NCBI GenBank assembly: GCA_021736985.1
Contig: JAIPEW010000007.1
Location: 1 to 64,000, forward strand
Reading direction: 5' to 3'
Source: Clostridiales bacterium
GTDB lineage: Bacteria > Bacillota > Desulfotomaculia > Desulfotomaculales > VENG01
DNA: 64,000 nucleotides
Shown here: positions 21,014-61,444 of the stretch, one piece after another
Position numbering within the stretch: position 1 is the first letter of the stretch
Layout: each line of letters begins with the position of its first letter
The notes under the pieces: generated by a model
What the model saw: only the letters and a program-made list of their open reading frames with translations
What the model was told of the DNA's origin: nothing
The model's database searches: none
Position numbers and translations under genes: made by a program

Positions 21014-22243
21014 TTATTTATCAAATACAAGAGCGTTACTTACTAAGTGATGTATATGTTTTATTTCTACACCCAATTTATAATGCTTATTTATATCACT
21101 TAACTGGTCAAAACAATTGTGGCAGGGGCTAGCAACAATCTTGGCCCCGGTTTCTTTAATCTGATCGGCCTTTAACTTGCCCTTGGCCATACGGTAAGGT
21201 TGTATATCGCTGCCCATGGACAACAGGCCACCGCCTCCACCACAGCAGATATTCCATTTCCCGTTGGGCCACATTTCACGGAAATCAGCACAAGCGTTAT
21301 TCAAGCATATCCTGGGCTCTTCTTCAATTCCTTCTTTACGTACTGCGTTACATGGATCATGCAGGGTTACCGGATCTGGATTATTACTCGGGTCTACTTT
21401 TATAATACCTTTTTGAATCCAATAAGCCTCCATTTGTGGAAGCCAGTATACAGGATAATTACCGTCTGTCTTAGGATCCAACCAAACTTTACGTCCCCAA
21501 CTCTGAGCACGCATAGCATGACCACATTCTGTAACTACTACATACTTGGGTTTTAACCTTTGAACCTCTTCTGAGATTCTCTTAAGCATCGTAGCAGAGT
21601 CCTGATCATCCCCGTTAAACAATCCATAGTGAGTAGCATCCCACCAGTTACTGGGACTGGTCCAACTTGCACCCGCAGCATGCATAATCATGGCAATACT
21701 TTGTATATCCAATGGATAGTATTTTATTTCCCGCGGGTCCCAGAGAAACATGATATCAGCGCCTTCTTCATCAATAGGAATTCTAAGGCTGGTATCATCA
21801 ATTTCCATTTGGGTTTCTTCTTCCATCCACTCCAGAGTATCCAGATAATCTTCCTTGCTTACTTCCATCTGGTTACCGGTATTTACCTGGGAATCAACTA
21901 TATCCTGAAGAAAACCCGGAGCCCTGAGTCCGAAATTACCCCGGATAGTACGTACTAACCCGGCAATATCAACATTCATGGGACACTGCATAGTACAACG
22001 ACCGCACTGGGTACATGCCCAGATAAACCAGTCATTTAACACTTCTTCCTTCATACCCAGCATAACTTTACGAATAAGTTTACGCGGGTCAGCATTATCG
22101 TGTACACCGTTAAAAGGACACCCTGCCGTGCACATACCACAGGTAAGACAATTATACAAATCCGACGGGTCATTCTCCGTGGCAAACGCGTTAATAACTT
22201 CATCCCTAAAATTAGGATCTAATTTTTTAGCTTCTATTGTCAC
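21014..22243 (-). CDS. HdrD/DsrK/TmcB-like iron-sulfur electron-transfer protein
   Basis: 409 residues. Two [4Fe-4S] motifs lie near the N-terminus: CLTCGMCTAGCP (~32-43) and CTQCGRCTMQCP (~76-87). The C-terminal half has a cysteine-rich CCG-type site: DPCNAVR, NICCGGGGGLLSM and SPCHNCFDQL. The first CCG repeat seems degenerate (VVTECGHAMRAQ). Such proteins pass electrons to disulfide-type acceptors in methanogens, sulfate reducers and acetogens. No cytochrome or HdrABC partner is adjacent, so it is an orphan subunit. A GGGGGG ribosome site precedes the start. Confidence 0.82.
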   Translation of the reverse strand: MTIEAKKLDPNFRDEVINAFATENDPSDLYNCLTCGMCTAGCPFNGVHDNADPRKLIRKVMLGMKEEVLNDWFIWACTQCGRCTMQCPMNVDIAGLVRTIRGNFGLRAPGFLQDIVDSQVNTGNQMEVSKEDYLDTLEWMEEETQMEIDDTSLRIPIDEEGADIMFLWDPREIKYYPLDIQSIAMIMHAAGASWTSPSNWWDATHYGLFNGDDQDSATMLKRISEEVQRLKPKYVVVTECGHAMRAQSWGRKVWLDPKTDGNYPVYWLPQMEAYWIQKGIIKVDPSNNPDPVTLHDPCNAVRKEGIEEEPRICLNNACADFREMWPNGKWNICCGGGGGLLSMGSDIQPYRMAKGKLKADQIKETGAKIVASPCHNCFDQLSDINKHYKLGVEIKHIHHLVSNALVFDK

Positions 22244-52044: not shown

Positions 52045-52782
52045 GTGAATATACCACCCCGGCAAACACAACAAAAAAATATTATAAAAATAAAAAATAC
52101 CGGCCGCTATGAAGTTGATGACACTGTTATAACTGAAAAAACTTATAATTTGCACGTAAACAACCATAAAGTAACAACATTTACCTGTTCTCCTACCTAC
52201 ATGGAAGAACTGGTTGCAGGTTTTTTATGTAATGAAAAATTTATTTCTAAAACAGAAGAAATAACTGAACTTCAAATCAACCACAACAGGGGAGAAATTA
52301 GAGTAACGATTGCAAACCAGCAGCAGTTAAGAAAAAATTCCTGTCTTCAACAAGAAAATACTCTTCCTGAAAACATGGATTTATACATAAAAATACAGGA
52401 ACTGCAGTCCCTGGGAGAAAAGTTTCAAAACATGGCTAAGCTTTTCCAGAAAACAGGCGGAGCACACGGGGCGGCTCTTTGCTCCTCGGAAAAAATAATT
52501 GTTTTTTACGAGGATGTAAGCCGCCACAATACACTGGACAAGATTTACGGGCACTGTCTAATAAATAACATTTCCCGGCACAACAAGTTTATAATATTTA
52601 CAGGAAGAATATCATCAACAATTTTGCAGAAGACTGCCCGAATGAGTATCCCATTAATAGCTTCTCCGTCTGCGCCTACCAGCCTGGCATTAGATTTAGC
52701 CGGGCAACTTGGAATCACTGTAGCAGGGTTCATGAGAGGTACACGCATAAATATATATACATACCCCGAAAGATTAATATGA
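52045..52782 (+). CDS. fdhD: Formate dehydrogenase accessory sulfurtransferase FdhD
   Basis: 245 residues. Typical motifs are YMEELVAGFLCNE, KTGGAHGAALC, EDVSRHNTLDKIYG and PSAPTSLALDLAGQLGITVAGFMRG. FdhD moves sulfur from IscS-type desulfurase to the Mo/W cofactor of formate dehydrogenase. The canonical CxxC loop seems reduced to one cysteine (NSCLQQ). GTG start behind ggaggtagg. The presence of fdhD argues for a Mo/W formate dehydrogenase elsewhere in the genome. Confidence 0.9.
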   Translation: MNIPPRQTQQKNIIKIKNTGRYEVDDTVITEKTYNLHVNNHKVTTFTCSPTYMEELVAGFLCNEKFISKTEEITELQINHNRGEIRVTIANQQQLRKNSCLQQENTLPENMDLYIKIQELQSLGEKFQNMAKLFQKTGGAHGAALCSSEKIIVFYEDVSRHNTLDKIYGHCLINNISRHNKFIIFTGRISSTILQKTARMSIPLIASPSAPTSLALDLAGQLGITVAGFMRGTRINIYTYPERLI

Positions 52783-52834: not shown

Positions 52835-52965
52835 ATCGAAAACGCCCTAAAAAGCTATGGTCTTAAACACAGGTAACAATCTGCAAATTGAAAGGGCCAG
52901 TGGATTTCCAGAAGGCAACGGAGTATTCTGAAGGAAACCACCGGCCCGGCAGAAAAAAGCTTAAC
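52835..52965 (-). repeat. Copy of the dispersed repeat family, short-interior form
   Basis: Minus strand: GGGCCGGTGGTTTCC, ~23-nt interior, GGAAATCCACTGGCCC, tttcaatttgcagattgtt, accatag and ggcgttttc. The arms form a strong hairpin. It lies just past the stop of the MoeA-PBP gene, where a terminator is expected. Confidence 0.82.
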
Positions 52966-54886
52966 TCGAACTCCACATTATTTTGCCGCAATCTCTTAAA
53001 TCATACCCGCCCATTCCTTCTACTGCTTTTTGAAATTCGGGCATCTGAATTACTTCTATCAACCTTTGAATATAAGGTGTATTATAAAAGTCGGCAGGTA
53101 TACACAGGTCATATCGCTCTTCTACCACAGGTATGAAATCCAAATCCAGCGCCTTAGCTGCGGCCAATATACCCATTCCTGCATCAGCAGTACTAGATGC
53201 TACTGCCGCCGCTACAGTCATGTGAGTGTATTCCTCTCTTTCATACCCCTGTACAGCAGCAGGATCAATATTGTTCTCCTTCAACTTATAATCAAAAAGA
53301 ACCCTGGTGCCTGCCCCTCTTTGCCTGTTAATATAGCTTATATCCTCCCTGGATAAATCTTTAACTCCTTGTATCTTTTTAGGGTTACCCCTGGCAACAA
53401 TAAAACCCTGCTGTCTGTAAACAAGGTTAACCAGTACAATTTCATCGTCTGGAATAATTTTTTTTATATAAGAAACATTGTAATCGCCAGTCTCTTCGTC
53501 CAAAAGATGAGTACCCCCCAGGTGAGCCTCTTTTCTCTTTAGCGCGTTAAGCCCTCCCAGGCTGCCCACGTGCGCAGAAGAAAGCGTAGCTTCCGGGTAT
53601 CTTTGCCGAAGGTAATTAGCAAGTACATCCAGCGCCATATCATGGCTGCCTATCGCTACCGTAGTTTCCTGTACCTCTTCCAACGGCCGCATCAATTCCA
53701 CTTCTATAGTATCTCCGGAGTTATATCCTTCTGAAAGCCTGGGGATTCTCAGCATACCGTCAGCACGCACCATAGAAGTAATTATCCCCGCGCCTCGTGC
53801 AATAGGAGTAGCAATAAATTTCTCCCCAACTTTGCCCATTTTTACACGAACAAATTCTTCTGTTCCCATGGAAGATACTATTTTTCTAGAAGCTTTCACT
53901 TGCTGCTTTACAGGTTCCGGGCAATAAGAAGCTAATTTATTGTAAATCACGGGCTTTACAAACAAGTTAGTATCTAAAAATGCAGAAACAGGATAGCCGG
54001 GAATACCCATTACAGGTTTCCCGTATATTTCTCCCAGCACTACCGGTTTACCAGGTTTTATTGCTACCCCGTGGGTAAGTACCGTTCCCATCTCTTCTAT
54101 TAATTGTGCAGTGTAATCTTCACGCCCGGCAGAAGAACCTGCATTTATAAGTACTATATCTGAATCTTCCAGGGCCCGTTCAAGCATACTTTTTATCGAT
54201 TCATATTTATCAGCTGTAATTTTCCACCTCACCGGTTCTGCTCCCCACTGCTGCAGCATATTCCCCAGCACCCTGGTATTATATTCCACTATACTGCCTG
54301 CACCAAGCTCCTGTCCGGGCTGCACCAGCTCAGTACCTGTTGGTAAAAGCCCTACCCTGGGCCTGGGATGCACTTGAATTTCAGTCACGCCCCCGGCTAA
54401 AATTGCTCCAATATCCACCGGGCGAAGCCGGTGATTAGCCGGCAGAATCATTTCAGTTGTCACCAGATCTTCTCCAATTACACGCACATGCTGCCAGGGT
54501 ACCGCCGGAGCAATAATTTCCAGCGTTTTTTCCCCGGTAAATTGCACGTCTTCGATCATAATTACCGCGTCACAGCCTTCGGGAAGCGGATCGCCAGTGT
54601 CAACTTCTTTAACATCATCTCCCATTTGCAGCTCTTCAGGATCTGCATCGGAAGCACCGAAAGTATTTGAAGATTTTACAGCAATCCCGTCCATGGATGC
54701 AGCATTATAATGTGGGGAAGACACTCTTGCATATATTGGAGCTGCAGTTACTCTGCCCAGAGCATTTTCAGCCAGAATTGTTTCAGTTTTTCCGGGAGTT
54801 AAAACTCCTTTCTGCTGCAAGTAATATATGTAATTTTGTAATGCTTCCTCCAGGGGCTGCTCGTTTAAATAAACATCTCTTTTCAT
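52961..54886 (-). CDS. MoeA-type molybdopterin molybdotransferase fused to PBP-like domain
   Basis: 641 residues. The first ~400 form a full MoeA: SPHYNAASMDGIAVKS, DPLPEGCDAVIMIEDVQ, LPTGTELVQPGQEL, INAGSSAGREDYTA and GIPGYPVSAFLDTN. The last ~230 form a periplasmic-binding-protein-like (LysR substrate) domain (GSHDMALDVLANYLRQRY, SSAHVGSLGGLNALK, GAGTRVLFDYKL). The fusion is common in anaerobes and is thought to sense or hold an oxyanion or cofactor. 37 bp after the second moeA. Two MoeAs may serve Mo and W separately. Confidence 0.9.
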   Translation of the reverse strand: MKRDVYLNEQPLEEALQNYIYYLQQKGVLTPGKTETILAENALGRVTAAPIYARVSSPHYNAASMDGIAVKSSNTFGASDADPEELQMGDDVKEVDTGDPLPEGCDAVIMIEDVQFTGEKTLEIIAPAVPWQHVRVIGEDLVTTEMILPANHRLRPVDIGAILAGGVTEIQVHPRPRVGLLPTGTELVQPGQELGAGSIVEYNTRVLGNMLQQWGAEPVRWKITADKYESIKSMLERALEDSDIVLINAGSSAGREDYTAQLIEEMGTVLTHGVAIKPGKPVVLGEIYGKPVMGIPGYPVSAFLDTNLFVKPVIYNKLASYCPEPVKQQVKASRKIVSSMGTEEFVRVKMGKVGEKFIATPIARGAGIITSMVRADGMLRIPRLSEGYNSGDTIEVELMRPLEEVQETTVAIGSHDMALDVLANYLRQRYPEATLSSAHVGSLGGLNALKRKEAHLGGTHLLDEETGDYNVSYIKKIIPDDEIVLVNLVYRQQGFIVARGNPKKIQGVKDLSREDISYINRQRGAGTRVLFDYKLKENNIDPAAVQGYEREEYTHMTVAAAVASSTADAGMGILAAAKALDLDFIPVVEERYDLCIPADFYNTPYIQRLIEVIQMPEFQKAVEGMGGYDLRDCGKIMWSSS

Positions 54887-54923: not shown

Positions 54924-56153
54924 TTAAAACAGCTTCACTGCTGCGCGTTCTCCCTTTTCTAAACCTTCTTTGCCTGCAGGGATTTTGGCCAGACCGCTGG
55001 CTTTAACCATTGTATTTATTAACGCAGACTTTCGCAGCACCGGTTCAGCCAGGATATTATCATTATCCCTTTTTAAAATAACTCGTATATAATCTTCCCT
55101 GCCGGGCGAGGAACGAATGTTGCGGGTTATCTCAGCCTGTACAGGAAATTCCAGCGGTTCACTGCAATACTCCCCCCGGCGAACCAGCGGTTCAACCATC
55201 AGCTGAAAAACAACCATTGCCGAAACCGGGTGCCCGGGCAATCCAAATACCGGCTTGTTATTAATCACTGCTCCCACAGTAGGTTTTCCTGGTTTAATAG
55301 ATATACCGTGAAACAAAATTCCCGGAGAACCCAGTTCCTCTATTACTTTTGATGCTATATCACGTGTACCTACGGAACTTCCCCCGGAAAGCAGCACCAT
55401 ATCACATTCTTGTAAGGCTTTTTCCATCAAACCTTTCAATTCGCTAAAATTATCCCCGGCAATTCCATAAAGAACTGGTTCTCCTCCACATGCAAGCACC
55501 TGGCCGTACAATGTATACGAATTAACATCCCTCATCTGCCCCGGCCCGGGGATTTCTTCTGTTTGTATAATCTCATCACCTGTAGAAATAATTCCTACCC
55601 GGGCATACAGCTTTACCTCAACTTCAAATACCCCTACAGCCGAAAGTAATCCCAGGTCCTGGGGACGTATAATATGCCCGGAAGGCAATATCTGATCACC
55701 TTTTGCTGCATCTTCTCCACAACTGATCATATTTTCTCCCGGGCCCACAGGACGTGTAATACCTATCGTTTTATCATCCAGGATTTCTGTATGCTCCAGC
55801 ATCACAACTGCATCAGCCCCCGGGGGGAGCATACCACCTGTAGGTATTTTGCAAGCCTGTCCGGGCTTTAGCTCATCAGCAGCATTTTTCCCCATAAAAA
55901 CTTCCCCGGATACATTTACATATGCCGGCAAGCTTTCTGATGCGCCAAATGTATCCCTTGATTTTACCGCAAAACCATCCATGGTAGAACGATCAAAACC
56001 GGGCACATTTTCTTCAGCCCACACATCAACTGCCAGGCATTTTCCCAGGGAATTTTTTAAAGAAACTTTCACTGCTAATCTTTTTCCCTGCAAACTTGCA
56101 TCAATTAATTCCCTTGCATTATTAACAGTACTCGCTTGAAAAAGTTCTGTCAT
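54924..56153 (-). CDS. moeA: MoeA-type molybdopterin molybdotransferase
   Basis: 409 residues: NVPGFDRSTMDGFAVKS, GMLPPGADAVVMLEHTE, IISTGDEIIQ, LSGGSSVGTRDI and GLPGHPVSAMVVFQL. It inserts molybdate or tungstate into adenylated molybdopterin. It starts ~21 bp after the 58-residue gene behind ggagg. Regulated with it by the riboswitch at 56503-56648. Confidence 0.94.
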   Translation of the reverse strand: MTELFQASTVNNARELIDASLQGKRLAVKVSLKNSLGKCLAVDVWAEENVPGFDRSTMDGFAVKSRDTFGASESLPAYVNVSGEVFMGKNAADELKPGQACKIPTGGMLPPGADAVVMLEHTEILDDKTIGITRPVGPGENMISCGEDAAKGDQILPSGHIIRPQDLGLLSAVGVFEVEVKLYARVGIISTGDEIIQTEEIPGPGQMRDVNSYTLYGQVLACGGEPVLYGIAGDNFSELKGLMEKALQECDMVLLSGGSSVGTRDIASKVIEELGSPGILFHGISIKPGKPTVGAVINNKPVFGLPGHPVSAMVVFQLMVEPLVRRGEYCSEPLEFPVQAEITRNIRSSPGREDYIRVILKRDNDNILAEPVLRKSALINTMVKASGLAKIPAGKEGLEKGERAAVKLF

Positions 56154-56454: not shown

Positions 56455-56480
56455 TAAAAAAACACCCTGAAAAGGGCGCA
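56455..56480 (-). terminator. Terminator of the moeA-operon riboswitch
   Basis: Minus strand: cgCCCTttttcAGGGtg followed by seven T. Short stem but in the right place, after the aptamer and before the 58-codon gene. Confidence 0.65.
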
Positions 56481-56502
56481 CGCAATATCTCAATCATTTT
56501 GA

Positions 56503-56648
56503 GTACTCCTTTCCAGTACGGGAGGCATGCCGGTTTCCCTTTTTAATTGCTAAAGTAAAGCAAAGGCATACCCTCAAGCTGGCAAACAGCTTTCGTTCAG
56601 CAGCCATAGCTATGGAAAAAACAGCCTTAGGCATACTAAATCGGAGAC
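56503..56648 (-). ncRNA. Moco/Tuco-type riboswitch aptamer of the moeA operon
   Basis: P1 GTCTCC / GGAGTAC encloses ATGCCTAAGGCTG, an inner helical region, GGGAAACCGGCATGCCTCCCG and ACTGGAAAGGAG. This is the same consensus as the two aptamers at 48313-48611, with longer inner arms. It stands before the 58-residue gene and both moeA genes, giving feedback by the finished cofactor. Confidence 0.87.
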
Positions 56649-56714
56649 CTTATATTTTATTATATAAACTATAATTAATTACTAAATATGATTTTCCTGC
56701 ATAACAGTAAAAAT

Positions 56715-57767
56715 TTATTCTTGCGGGAGCAGTACTCTTAGTGTAGTTCCTTTATTTAATTGGCTTTCTACTTTTAAGGTTCCACCGTGATTTTCGATAA
56801 TTTTCTTACTTATAAACATTCCCAGTCCCGTACTGTTCTCTTTTGTAGTATAAAAAGGGTCAAATATATTTTCTATAGTTTTTTTATCCATACCTGGTCC
56901 TGTATCTTTAATTATAATTTCAACATTTTCATCTTGCTCATCCCATGAAGTTTCTATTATGATATCTCCAGTTGAAGAAAAAGCTTCAAATGCATTTCTA
57001 ATAAAATTCAAAAGTACTTGTTTAAGCTGGTCCCTGTCAGCATAAATATCAGAAATATCTTGCCCTTCCTTTATGTAAATATTTACATTTCTTGAAGACG
57101 CCTCACTCTCCACCAGCATTAATACATCCTTGATTAACTTGTTCACGCAGCAACCATCGCGCCTGGAATAACCGGGTCTGGCCAGGTATAGAAATTCAGA
57201 TATTAACCTCTCAACATGCTTTAATTCATCAAACATAATATGCAGGTGCTCTTCCCGGCTAGTTCCTTGTAAATCTTTTTGCAGCAGCTGTAAAAAACCA
57301 CTTATAGTCGCAAGCGCATTTTTTATTTCATGCACAGTACTGGCAGCTAATTGACCTAATATAGCCAGTTTCTCTGCTTTTATTACGGCATTCTCTAATT
57401 CAATTTGTTTCTTGGCCGGCAATAAAACAGCAACTGCACCACTGAGCTGATTTTTTTCTACCAGTACAGGATATGTATTAACTATATAATCATTAGAAAT
57501 AAGTCCAGGAAAAACATCACGGGTTTTTAATTCACAATATTCTTCACATGTATAAAGAGTTTTTAGAAGTTTGTTTTGTTCCAGGCAAACACCTTTTAAT
57601 AAATCTCCAAAATAACACCCCAAGGTTTCTTTTTCATTAATGCCACTTAAATCAGAAAACAACCGATTAAACAATCTTACTCGACCATCTCTGTCAATAA
57701 ATAATAAACCTACTGGCAGAATATTTATTATAGTATCCAAATAACTTCCTGGGGTTTCTATTAACAT
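56715..57767 (-). CDS. PAS-containing soluble sensor histidine kinase
   Basis: 350 residues: PAS domain (~12-118; INILPVGLLFIDRDGRVRLF), HisKA with phospho-histidine H146 in ASTVHEIKNALATISGFLQL, and an ATPase domain with N-box LLNFIRNAFEAFS, DTGPGMD and STGLGMFISKKIIENHGG. No transmembrane helix, so it senses something inside the cell. It is the last gene of the KaiC-V4R operon. No response regulator is encoded in the window. Confidence 0.9.
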   Translation of the reverse strand: MLIETPGSYLDTIINILPVGLLFIDRDGRVRLFNRLFSDLSGINEKETLGCYFGDLLKGVCLEQNKLLKTLYTCEEYCELKTRDVFPGLISNDYIVNTYPVLVEKNQLSGAVAVLLPAKKQIELENAVIKAEKLAILGQLAASTVHEIKNALATISGFLQLLQKDLQGTSREEHLHIMFDELKHVERLISEFLYLARPGYSRRDGCCVNKLIKDVLMLVESEASSRNVNIYIKEGQDISDIYADRDQLKQVLLNFIRNAFEAFSSTGDIIIETSWDEQDENVEIIIKDTGPGMDKKTIENIFDPFYTTKENSTGLGMFISKKIIENHGGTLKVESQLNKGTTLRVLLPQE

Positions 57768-57802
57768 AAATACCTCCTACGTCAATACACACGGGTTATC
57801 AA

Positions 57803-58078
57803 TCAAGACCTTTCGTAAGTTTGAAAATATTTGTTTATTAAATTCCCGTTGCTCAGCTTATAGACAGTCATATCTTTACTGCCGCTTTTTTCTAATATAC
57901 CGAGCGCACTTAAGGCATTTAATGCCCCTTCTACCAGGTGTCGGGGACGGTATAATCGAAGGGCCAGGCCGGATGATGTATCCCGCGTATGCGGGTTAGC
58001 CTGAAAAAAGGCTAGCAGCTCTATACGTACAACGCTTTGTTGTATGCTGTCATTTTTTTCATTTACACCATTTTTCAT
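57803..58078 (-). CDS. Small winged-helix-like protein in KaiC operon
   Basis: 91 residues with a helical pattern like a winged helix: SVVRIELLAFFQANPHTRDT, LRLYRPRHLVEGALNALSAL, ILEKSGSKDMTVYKLS. May be a small transcription factor or protein-interaction module. It overlaps the V4R gene by 4 bp (ATGA), so it is translated with it. No close family recognised. Confidence 0.65.
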   Translation of the reverse strand: MKNGVNEKNDSIQQSVVRIELLAFFQANPHTRDTSSGLALRLYRPRHLVEGALNALSALGILEKSGSKDMTVYKLSNGNLINKYFQTYERS

Positions 58079-59085
58079 TTACTATCCCCCTTCTTCTCAT
58101 AACGGGGAACGGGGATAGCGATAAATTCACAGTAATTTCCTTGTACTGATTGACAGTGCAACTCCTCACATATAGTTTCCCTGTCAAGTAAAACACCCAG
58201 GTAAGCAGCAAAAATCCCCCTCAGCAAATCGCATATTACCTGGGGACTGCGATAAAGGTGACCGTACTCTTCCGCCGCTGCTACCTGGAAAGAATCATAG
58301 CAATGTATTTCTGCCCTGCCGCTAAGTTCATCAAAAGATATTAATTCCGGCCTGCCCATACCCTGGTACTCTATCTCACGCAGCAAAAACTGCAAGCATT
58401 CTTTATTATCATCATACATTTCTCTGGCCTTGCGAGCCAAATAAACTCCCGAACGGTAACCTGCATCATATAAAACATGTTTTAAAGCATGAGGTGCATG
58501 CTCATTTATCGATGTTAACAATGAAATATAAGTTTCTTGCGTAAGAAGAATTGCCCTTCTACCGGCAATCTTTAACTCATGACCTTCCCGGGTAACTATA
58601 TCTTCCCTGGGGCAGGATGAATAAAACAACTTGCCCTCGCAAATACCATTTTCCCAGTCAACATAAATCTGTGGAGTATATTCTTTAACAAGCACCTGGC
58701 GCAGCACTGCTTGAAAAGCAGCAAGGCGAATACAAGAAAAAGGCAGTCCTTCTTCTAAAACCTCCAGGCAATACTGGCGATACACACAACTCCTGTTGTC
58801 CACACGCACTATAACCCCGTCTTCTGTTCCTTCCAGGTAGTAATCATTAGCATCTATAAAACCCTTATCATCCAATAAATCCAGGTAAGCCCGGCAAATA
58901 TTTTCTGGTTTTTGAGAACTATTTTCTAATTCACTGCCGTAATCATCAAGTATACACTGCGATACGCCAAACATAAGCTGCTCCAACCAGTGCTGGCCGC
59001 TAAATGGAAGCTGTTCCATTGTCCTGCACATGCTTTTATACATGTAATTAACCATCTTACGGTATATGATTTTGCTATCTGTCAT
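58075..59085 (-). CDS. V4R-domain (4-vinyl reductase-like) sensor protein
   Basis: 336 residues. The C-terminal half is a V4R ligand-binding fold: DAGYRSGVYLARKAREMYDD, YDSFQVAAAEEYGH and the closing cysteine pattern CEELHCQSVQGNYCEFIAIP. The N-terminal half has no domain that I recognise. V4R domains bind small hydrophobic or tetrapyrrole-related ligands and are common in regulators. Overlaps both neighbours by 4 bp. Confidence 0.75.
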   Translation of the reverse strand: MTDSKIIYRKMVNYMYKSMCRTMEQLPFSGQHWLEQLMFGVSQCILDDYGSELENSSQKPENICRAYLDLLDDKGFIDANDYYLEGTEDGVIVRVDNRSCVYRQYCLEVLEEGLPFSCIRLAAFQAVLRQVLVKEYTPQIYVDWENGICEGKLFYSSCPREDIVTREGHELKIAGRRAILLTQETYISLLTSINEHAPHALKHVLYDAGYRSGVYLARKAREMYDDNKECLQFLLREIEYQGMGRPELISFDELSGRAEIHCYDSFQVAAAEEYGHLYRSPQVICDLLRGIFAAYLGVLLDRETICEELHCQSVQGNYCEFIAIPVPRYEKKGDSK

Positions 59086-59801
59086 TCTCCCACCCCCATC
59101 CGGGCAGTTAATAAAATCCCATATACAGGATTAATATCAAACATGTACCGCGAAGATACAAATTGCTGACTTTTTACTTTACCTATCTGCATAAATCGTG
59201 TACCATTATATTTTCCCCTGCCAAAATTCATTTTTAGTATAAAGTTGTAAAGGTGTCCGGTTACTGTCATGATCCTGGGCTCTAATACCCCATTTACAAA
59301 TATATCCATAACCAATACCCCGTTTCTCCGCAAATATTTTAACCGGGTACGGTGAAATTCCAAGACATCTGCAGTATCTACCATGGTAAATAAAGTACTC
59401 AGGCTGTCCACAACCAGCCTGATACTGTGCCCTTTAAAATTCCGAATAACTTCTGTTTCCAGGGCAAAATATTTGTCCAGCTGGCGCTGGTCACTGAGAG
59501 AATATTTTTCGCTGCTGCCGCTTTCTTCATAAGCATCTATAAAAACCAGTCTGTTTTTTTCTTCATAAACAGGTACACCAATTTTAAAGTTTAATAAATG
59601 CTGGCGCATTACTGACGGGGGTTCATCACAGGCAACATAAATACAGGTATCCCCACATCGCAGCCCTTCTTTTATAAATTCTCCCGCAAGTACGGTTTTA
59701 CCTACCCCGGAATCACCCTCTACCATTATTTGAGAACCGTAGGAAAAACCTTTATCCAAATTCTTATCTAAACCTTCTACTCCAAAAAATGCTCTACGCA
59801 A
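59082..59801 (-). CDS. KaiC/RadA-superfamily ATPase, single domain
   Basis: 239 residues of one RecA-like KaiC domain: VEGLDKNLDKGFSYGSQIMV, Walker A GDSGVGKT (29-36), ACDEPPSVM and Walker B IRLVVDSLSTLF. The C-terminal part lacks the usual 'E-E' pair after Walker A (DEPP instead). Five bases after the double-domain KaiC gene. Likely forms a regulatory ring that handles ATP as a signal or recruits the V4R partner. Confidence 0.82.
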   Translation of the reverse strand: MRRAFFGVEGLDKNLDKGFSYGSQIMVEGDSGVGKTVLAGEFIKEGLRCGDTCIYVACDEPPSVMRQHLLNFKIGVPVYEEKNRLVFIDAYEESGSSEKYSLSDQRQLDKYFALETEVIRNFKGHSIRLVVDSLSTLFTMVDTADVLEFHRTRLKYLRRNGVLVMDIFVNGVLEPRIMTVTGHLYNFILKMNFGRGKYNGTRFMQIGKVKSQQFVSSRYMFDINPVYGILLTARMGVGE

Positions 59802-59806
59802 TTAAA

Positions 59807-61192
59807 TCAACCTCCTACCCGGGGAAAAACTTGTAAACCTGAATTATTTATTTCTAGTAAATGGTTGCCCATGATATGGTCTACCCCGCGAAGTTTATAA
59901 ACTTCTAATTGCCTTTCCCGGCGCTTTTGTACTAAGGTTGATTTGAGCAGTATGGTCCCTTGGACTATGGAGTGTATTATTTCTATCCTACCGTTATCAG
60001 CAGTGTTCCAATCCGGGCTTATTAATAAAGTAGTACAATTAAGTTTGTTTAAGTAATTAACCAGGTAATAAAATTTTTCATGTAAGAGAGCAGCATTGTC
60101 TATGCGGGTTAGAAAACCATAAATAGAGTCCAAAACAAGCCGGCAAGCCCCAAAATTCGTTACTTGCTCGGACAACCAGATAATAGTTTCATTAATTTCC
60201 ATGTCGGAAAGAGGCTGGTACATTATCTTAACCATACCTTTTTCCTCCAGTTCCTTGAGTTCCCAGTTAAAACGACTGGCACATAACATTAACTGTGACA
60301 GGGGCTCTTCGAGGGATAAAAATATACCTTTTTCTCCATAATCACGGGCCCCACTAACCAGGTATTGGAGGCCCATCACCGTTTTCCCAGTTCCAGAACT
60401 ACCGGCCACAGCCATGGTTATACCCCGGGGAAGTCCTCCCTGCGTCAAGTAATCCAAACCGGGAATTCCAGTATGCACTAATTCATTTTCCTGTTCTACC
60501 CTACTGCATACATTCATCGCCTTTACCGGAGAAAATACTTTAACCCCTTCTTCTAAAATACGAAAAGAATGCTCACCGGCAACATGGTCCTGCCCCCTGG
60601 TTTTAGTTATTTCCAACACGCGATGCCTGTGCAGACCCGGCATTTCTTTATTCTTCAGGCGGATAACCGCATCAACTATGTATTCCTCAAAAGCATAACA
60701 CGCTTCTTCCTTGCTTTCCTGTTCCTTCACTAAAAGAGTTGTAAGACCAAGGCGCCGCAGCCCGTTACAAAAACTGTATACTGTTTTGCGTATAGATTGA
60801 TTGTCATTCGAAATATTCCGAAAATGACTGATACTGTCAATTAAGACTCGTTTTGCCCCTACCTCTTCCACTACTTGTTCAATTAAATTAGTTTCTGTAT
60901 CTGCAAGCACTTCCGGTGAAGTACATATAATACGCAGCTTATTTTCCATTTCCAACTTCCGCATGTCCCAGCCAAAATTGAGGGCATCCCTGTACATTGA
61001 TTCTGGAAATTCTTCAAAAGTAACTATTACTCCGGGCTCGTTAAAATCAATAATCCCCCGGCACACATATTCTATGCCGAAAGTAGTCTTTCCAGCGCCG
61101 GGAACACCTTCCATAAGAATCGAATTGCCCCTTAATATACCGCCGTACACCAGTTCATCAAAACCGCTTATTCCTGTAACTACCTTATCCAA
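59807..61192 (-). CDS. KaiC-like ATPase with two RecA domains
   Basis: About 461 residues in two KaiC domains. The first has Walker A GVPGAGKTT (~28-36), TFEEFPESMY and Walker B VLIDSISHF. The second has GSSGTGKTV (~258-266), LSLEEPLSQLM and LVLDSIYGFL. Both keep the paired glutamates used for hydrolysis. I start at the TTG at 61192 behind a long aaaggggg rather than the ATG at 61219 upstream of it. The S/T autophosphorylation motif of cyanobacterial KaiC is not evident. First gene of a five-gene operon. Confidence 0.83.
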   Translation of the reverse strand: MDKVVTGISGFDELVYGGILRGNSILMEGVPGAGKTTFGIEYVCRGIIDFNEPGVIVTFEEFPESMYRDALNFGWDMRKLEMENKLRIICTSPEVLADTETNLIEQVVEEVGAKRVLIDSISHFRNISNDNQSIRKTVYSFCNGLRRLGLTTLLVKEQESKEEACYAFEEYIVDAVIRLKNKEMPGLHRHRVLEITKTRGQDHVAGEHSFRILEEGVKVFSPVKAMNVCSRVEQENELVHTGIPGLDYLTQGGLPRGITMAVAGSSGTGKTVMGLQYLVSGARDYGEKGIFLSLEEPLSQLMLCASRFNWELKELEEKGMVKIMYQPLSDMEINETIIWLSEQVTNFGACRLVLDSIYGFLTRIDNAALLHEKFYYLVNYLNKLNCTTLLISPDWNTADNGRIEIIHSIVQGTILLKSTLVQKRRERQLEVYKLRGVDHIMGNHLLEINNSGLQVFPRVGG

Positions 61193-61444
61193 GTACCCCC
61201 CCCCTTTTTTTATAAACATTTGTAAGCTTTTTATTCTTATATCTTTTCAGTATGAAAAATACTTACATTTATTTTAAATCTATTGTTATTTTTCATATTT
61301 TAACACGTAAAGTTAATCCATAACAGTATTTTTATGTAAAAAAGGATAAATACCCTTAAAATTTTTTAATATTAAAACTCTTTACTTGATGCTTTTTGTG
61401 TTATTTAATATTAATAAGAAAAACAAAGTAAGGAGACTGAAAAT

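Follow-up and report, generated by a model that had tools for sequence, protein, structure and literature searches.

KaiC proteins are common outside cyanobacteria, and their roles there are mostly unclear. This question is raised by a locus in a 64,000-nucleotide stretch of DNA from a Clostridiales bacterium of the class Desulfotomaculia (hereafter the window), where two KaiC-type ATPases are encoded together with a V4R protein, a winged-helix protein and a histidine kinase. What could such a set of proteins sense, and to which output would it be connected? The five genes constitute a strictly conserved unit, shared by relatives of Pelotomaculum and Desulfotomaculum that live anaerobically and form spores, and separate lines of evidence suggest that it has a role in deciding when sporulation starts.

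Organization of the operon

The initial annotation had placed five genes at 56715-61192, separated by 4-bp overlaps or short gaps. All of them were recovered on the minus strand, in the following arrangement:

61193..61444, minus strand: operon upstream region, divergent from threonine synthase
59807..61192, minus strand: K1, double-domain KaiC ATPase (CI and CII), TTG start
59082..59801, minus strand: K2, single-domain KaiC-type ATPase, TTG start
58075..59085, minus strand: V4R sensor protein, N-terminal helix/strand domain and C-terminal V4R domain
57803..58078, minus strand: wH, winged-helix protein of 91 amino acids
56715..57767, minus strand: HK, soluble PAS-HisKA-HATPase histidine kinase without an adjacent response regulator

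The most likely start of K1 is the TTG at 61190-61192, which follows AAAGGGGGGGGG, as already proposed, and the gene ends at 59807. K1 and K2 are 5 bp apart, K2 overlaps the V4R gene by 4 bp, the V4R gene overlaps wH by another 4 bp, and a gap of 35 bp separates wH from HK. The total of three RecA domains counted earlier is also borne out, with the Pfam KaiC domain found twice in K1 and once in K2.

A molybdenum/tungsten cofactor riboswitch (Rfam RF01055, 49 bits; window 56490-56658, minus strand), accompanied by a terminator-like hairpin at 56462-56479, separates HK from the moeA genes further downstream. This position fits a regulation of moeA and not of the KaiC module. At 52961-54886 (minus strand), MoeA is encoded as a fusion that carries a PBP-like domain (PF12727) at its C-terminus, and the gene adjoins a second moeA (54924-56153) and fdhD (52045-52782).

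Conservation of the module in relatives

The initial annotation had made its reading depend on the conservation of this neighbourhood in relatives, and we found the five genes in the same order in ~30 genomes. Relatives of the V4R protein are present in 22 of the 113 genomes of the class, and in nearly all of these the module is collinear, with all five genes on one strand; including a phylum-wide search, the order is kept in about 20 genomes of the class and about 10 outside it. The contig scan for module genomes worked with an alignment of K2, while a single V4R sequence used as query gave no match. Named carriers include Pelotomaculum propionicicum, Sporotomaculum syntrophicum, Desulfofundulus thermosubterraneus, Desulfocucumis palustris and Syntrophaceticus schinkii, to which MAGs of Desulfoscipio and one MAG of Thermacetogenium are added. 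Syntrophs and sulfate reducers are frequent among the carriers.

The 4-bp overlap between K2 and the V4R gene is kept throughout the class. Because this overlap and the gene order persist at 44-60% V4R identity, the module lies far beyond what chance would produce. The flanking genes vary: when the neighbouring ORFs are clustered, nothing beyond the five genes is shared. The most conserved member is K2, with 60-76% identity within the class. The distance matrices of the five proteins are correlated (0.72-0.91), and for the most part the tree groups the sequences by family, so that inheritance has been mainly vertical, with losses. Decay is seen in a copy that has lost K1 (L055), in another with one TAG in the V4R gene (L115) and in a second copy in one genome (G098; L052 1280-2414), where the V4R gene is intact, K2 is a remnant and transposase-like ORFs lie nearby. 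A second copy in another genome (G013; L029 3883-7253) has no kinase gene and adjoins a glyA-like gene. Finally, all five components are rearranged in two genomes of one family (G188 and G223; clusters L104 2075-6385 and L105 1219-5480), in the order hybrid kinase, wH, K1, K2 and V4R. There, the upstream hybrid is a PAS-kinase-receiver-Hpt protein and the V4R protein is fused to a domain that, by eye, resembles a substrate-binding protein. A search for SpoIVA in G188 gave no match.

The association of the components is an observation, and a single signalling unit is its best explanation. Our searches among open-licence papers found no report of a KaiC-V4R-kinase module.

A candidate sigma-H-type promoter precedes the operon in relatives

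Upstream of K1 in the relatives, we recognized the pattern AGGAWWW-N11/12-GNNGAAW, in which AGGA and GAAW are 17-18 nt apart. The sigma-H motif described in Sporomusa consists of AGGA and GAAT with a 17-18 nt spacer, and spo0A is a known example (PMC12456013). The strict pattern is found before K1 in 15 of 25 non-redundant loci versus 12 of ~316 other intergenic regions (about 4%; Fisher p about 1e-12), a comparison in which the background size is approximate and the p-value overstates independence because the foreground promoters share ancestry. The element is also present before wH, the first gene of the rearranged cluster in G188, and spo0A has it at a distance of 70-94 nt upstream in 19 of 20 genomes, including that of the window. 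In our best reading, the operon would be expressed at the transition phase. Given the AGGA block at a constant spacing of 17-18 nt, we did not retain the interpretation of the GTCGAA element as a Spo0A box alone; the two interpretations overlap, and Spo0A may bind there as well.

The upstream region of the window operon (61193..61444) contains no recognisable sigma-H site, with a best score of 7.5 (shuffle p=0.93), where most relatives reach 9-10. Elsewhere in the window, a sigma-H-like site, AGGAATTTAAAATTATAAGCAGAAT, is located upstream of the ORF at 22243. Moreover, sigma-H motifs are found at 16% of the start sites in Sporomusa, metabolic genes among them (PMC12456013), so the promoter is no proof of a role in sporulation.

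The specificity residues of the kinase resemble those of Spo0F-directed kinases

HK consists of PAS, HisKA and HATPase_c domains according to Pfam (PAS PF00989, 26.1 bits, above the cut-off), and its catalytic residues H146, E147, N254, N258, D288, G290, G292 and G314 are invariant. In agreement with the initial annotation, which had seen no response regulator in the operon, the kinase is an orphan, the genome-wide list holding no receiver domain near it (C23:57174). Sporulation kinases are likewise orphans and usually carry PAS domains, with the specificity residues TAGFQL in KinA, TVGFQL in KinB and TTGFQL in Dtox_1918 of Desulfotomaculum acetoxidans (Davidson et al. 2018, PMC6136694). Among the 21 module kinases of the class, 12 match TxGFQL exactly and the other 9 are one change away; the window kinase belongs to the latter, with P+5 changed to A (ATGFQL). 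Seven kinases from outside the class or from more distant named loci drift further (TAGFQI, SAGFQL, AAGYQL, SAGYQL, TTLSQL and TTMSQL). In the window genome, the kinases with a regulator nearby on the same contig carry TSGFET, TSGWET, TSGFEA, GSALQS and GITTQL, where the TSGFEA kinase is 5.6 kb from the nearest regulator and one paired kinase (C44) is left out of the comparison. The other orphan kinases of this genome carry TTGMQL, TTGMQI and SVGLQI.

A Spo0F/Spo0B phosphorelay has been shown in Desulfotomaculum acetoxidans (PMC6136694). In the window genome, spo0A is present, a Spo0F-like receiver adjoins fba (fructose-bisphosphate aldolase) and a Spo0B-like protein adjoins obg. With Spo0F and Spo0B assigned by sequence and neighbourhood only, the predicted phosphorelay looks complete. 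The presence of the sporulation markers spo0A and spoIVA and of the flagellar marker flhA does not separate genomes with the module from those without it, nearly all of both having the three genes. As spo0A and spoIVA also occur where the module is missing, sporulation does not depend on it.

A candidate input to the Spo0 phosphorelay

We therefore favour, at a rough probability of 55%, a transition-phase sensor of a ligand or of energy state that would be gated by KaiC and would feed the Spo0 phosphorelay. In such a scheme, the V4R protein would bind a small ligand or a metal, and the two KaiC ATPases, with their three RecA domains and probably as hexameric rings, would read the nucleotide state or bind partners. 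Together, the V4R and KaiC proteins would form a complex and set the activity of the PAS kinase through wH, which would either act directly or serve as an adaptor. When cells enter stationary phase, phosphate would then pass from HK to Spo0F, Spo0B and Spo0A. The module could thus serve as one input that controls entry into sporulation, or other decisions of the transition state, in spore-formers that are anaerobic and often syntrophic. The sporulation output is predicted from the relatives and from the specificity residues, and no other member of the module has diverged as far as the window copy, which sits on a long branch of the tree; for this reason, the arguments from promoter and specificity are weakest when transferred to the window organism. 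The initial annotation had proposed a signalling complex, which fits the anatomy of the operon, but it had missed the likely output to which the sigma-H-type promoter of the relatives and the Spo0F-type kinase residues point. More tentatively, the module may represent a new type of input to sporulation initiation: a pair of KaiC rings would gate a Spo0F-directed kinase in response to ATP or a ligand, and K1 might pass slowly through a phosphorylation cycle and so delay the commitment to sporulate.

Anaerobes of this kind are important in methanogenic digesters and the subsurface. If the favoured reading is true, they would possess a sporulation input that senses a ligand or energy. The fixed set of five genes, the predicted output (Spo0F) and the predicted expression window (sigma-H) make the function of a non-cyanobacterial KaiC directly testable.

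The V4R protein and a possible metabolic output

The V4R domain (PF02830) scores 32.5 bits in Pfam, just above the cut-off. The protein has profile matches to the phenol sensors DmpR and MopR and fold matches to PoxR and MopR (AlphaFold2 model, pLDDT 79). C285, E308, C311 and C319 are invariant and align with the metal-ligand positions of DmpR; this Cys/Glu/Cys/Cys set binds zinc in DmpR and MopR. The N-terminal half contains conserved cysteines at 100, 106, 118 and 149, and in the model its order of helices and strands equals that of the V4R half. A tandem duplication detectable in the sequence was considered but is not supported: the halves have a common predicted topology, but profile comparison gave a probability of 0.6%. 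A stand-alone homologue of the Cys-rich N-terminal domain alone, 161 amino acids long and without KaiC, is encoded at another locus (L106 4297-4782, minus strand), flanked by a peptidase-like and an argS-like gene.

Aromatic compounds are the signals sensed by V4R relatives, and the module might instead regulate catabolism or syntrophic metabolism at the transition phase, the V4R/KaiC sensor acting through the kinase on a non-Spo0 response regulator encoded elsewhere. Unpaired regulators exist in the window genome, the lifestyle of the carriers would suit such a role, and in related acetogens the genes under sigma-H control include metabolic ones (PMC12456013). We consider this output rather unlikely, as the specificity residues of HK match those of Spo0F-directed kinases and differ from those of the paired kinases of the genome. 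Moreover, the tryptophan that contacts phenol in the DmpR pocket is replaced at the aligned position by an invariant Cys262.

The winged-helix protein

Could wH itself be the output? The AlphaFold2 model of wH is a winged helix (pLDDT 85), Pfam gives sub-threshold winged-helix matches only, and the fold matches to ArsR/MarR-type DNA-binding proteins are weak. The KaiC/V4R complex might release wH or recruit it to DNA, with the kinase acting on the complex or feeding it, and no response regulator would be needed. The resemblance to DNA-binding winged helices agrees with this, as do the presence of wH in essentially every module and its position next to K1 in the rearranged clusters. However, the weakness of the fold and sequence matches and the retention of all phosphotransfer residues in the kinase make a direct wH output improbable, and the kinase-mediated input to Spo0F remains our preferred reading.

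The KaiC proteins and the question of a clock

K1 contains two KaiC domains (Pfam, 363 bits, E=5.5e-109), each with a Walker A motif and a catalytic EE pair, and its alignment to cyanobacterial KaiC spans the whole length. Numbered from the 470-amino-acid ORF starting at 61219, Ser417 occupies the position of KaiC Thr432 and His416 that of Ser431. The second phosphosite pair, in CII, is thus H-S, versus S-T in KaiC, and Ser417 is kept in at least 90%. K2 has one KaiC domain (PF06745, 95 bits, E=6e-27) with Walker A GDSGVGKT and catalytic DE; among solved sequences, it is closest to KaiC and to KaiC-like proteins of archaea. We found no further strong KaiC in the 2.84-Mb genome of the window, where the other PF06745 matches are weak, reaching about 60 bits at most, and resemble proteins of the RecA/RadA/DnaB type.

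KaiA and other clock genes are not among the genes of the operon, and KaiB (PF07689, E<=0.001) was found in none of the 22 module genomes, which extends the earlier remark on its absence from the locus. The ligand- and ATP-gated complex suggested in the initial annotation is compatible with these proteins and an energy sensor is plausible, whereas a clock, or the timer also suggested there, is unsupported in view of the missing KaiB and the H-S pair. A KaiC oscillator working without KaiA and KaiB would profit from a full two-domain K1 with catalytic Glu pairs and a serine at the Thr432 position, but the lack of KaiB, the histidine at position 431 and the absence of evident periodicity anywhere in the data make it highly improbable.

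Comparison with known systems

The V4R protein has the C-terminal fold and the four metal-ligand positions in common with the phenol-sensor domains of DmpR, MopR and PoxR. It differs from them by the Cys262 substitution, by an additional Cys-rich N-terminal domain and by having neither a sigma-54 AAA domain nor a DNA-binding domain.

The cyanobacterial KaiABC system with SasA resembles the module in its two-domain KaiC, which has similar catalytic motifs and aligns over its full length, and in a histidine kinase as the likely output. However, the module has no KaiB, no other clock genes in the operon and a different phosphosite pair; it has in addition a single-domain KaiC, V4R and winged-helix partners, and its kinase carries a PAS domain. 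Among non-cyanobacteria, Rhodobacter operons also place KaiC beside a histidine kinase; as cited in passages of PMC5520375, they encode KaiB, and V4R, single-domain KaiC and wH are unmentioned in those passages. The KaiC-family signalling hubs of archaea (Makarova, Galperin and Koonin 2017, as summarized in PMC5847659) combine KaiC-family ATPases with sensor and output domains as the module does. In that summary, their component sets vary, whereas the bacterial module is one operon with a fixed set of five genes.

Spo0F-directed orphan PAS kinases such as KinA and Dtox_1918 are like HK in their orphan status, PAS domain and the phosphorelay genes of their genomes (PMC6136694), and their TxGFQL residues are matched by the module kinases exactly or, as in the window, up to one change. 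Davidson et al. found no conserved neighbourhood for sporulation kinases (PMC6136694). No operon shared with regulatory ATPases is described for the known Spo0F-directed kinases, unlike HK, which is encoded in one operon with two KaiC-type proteins.
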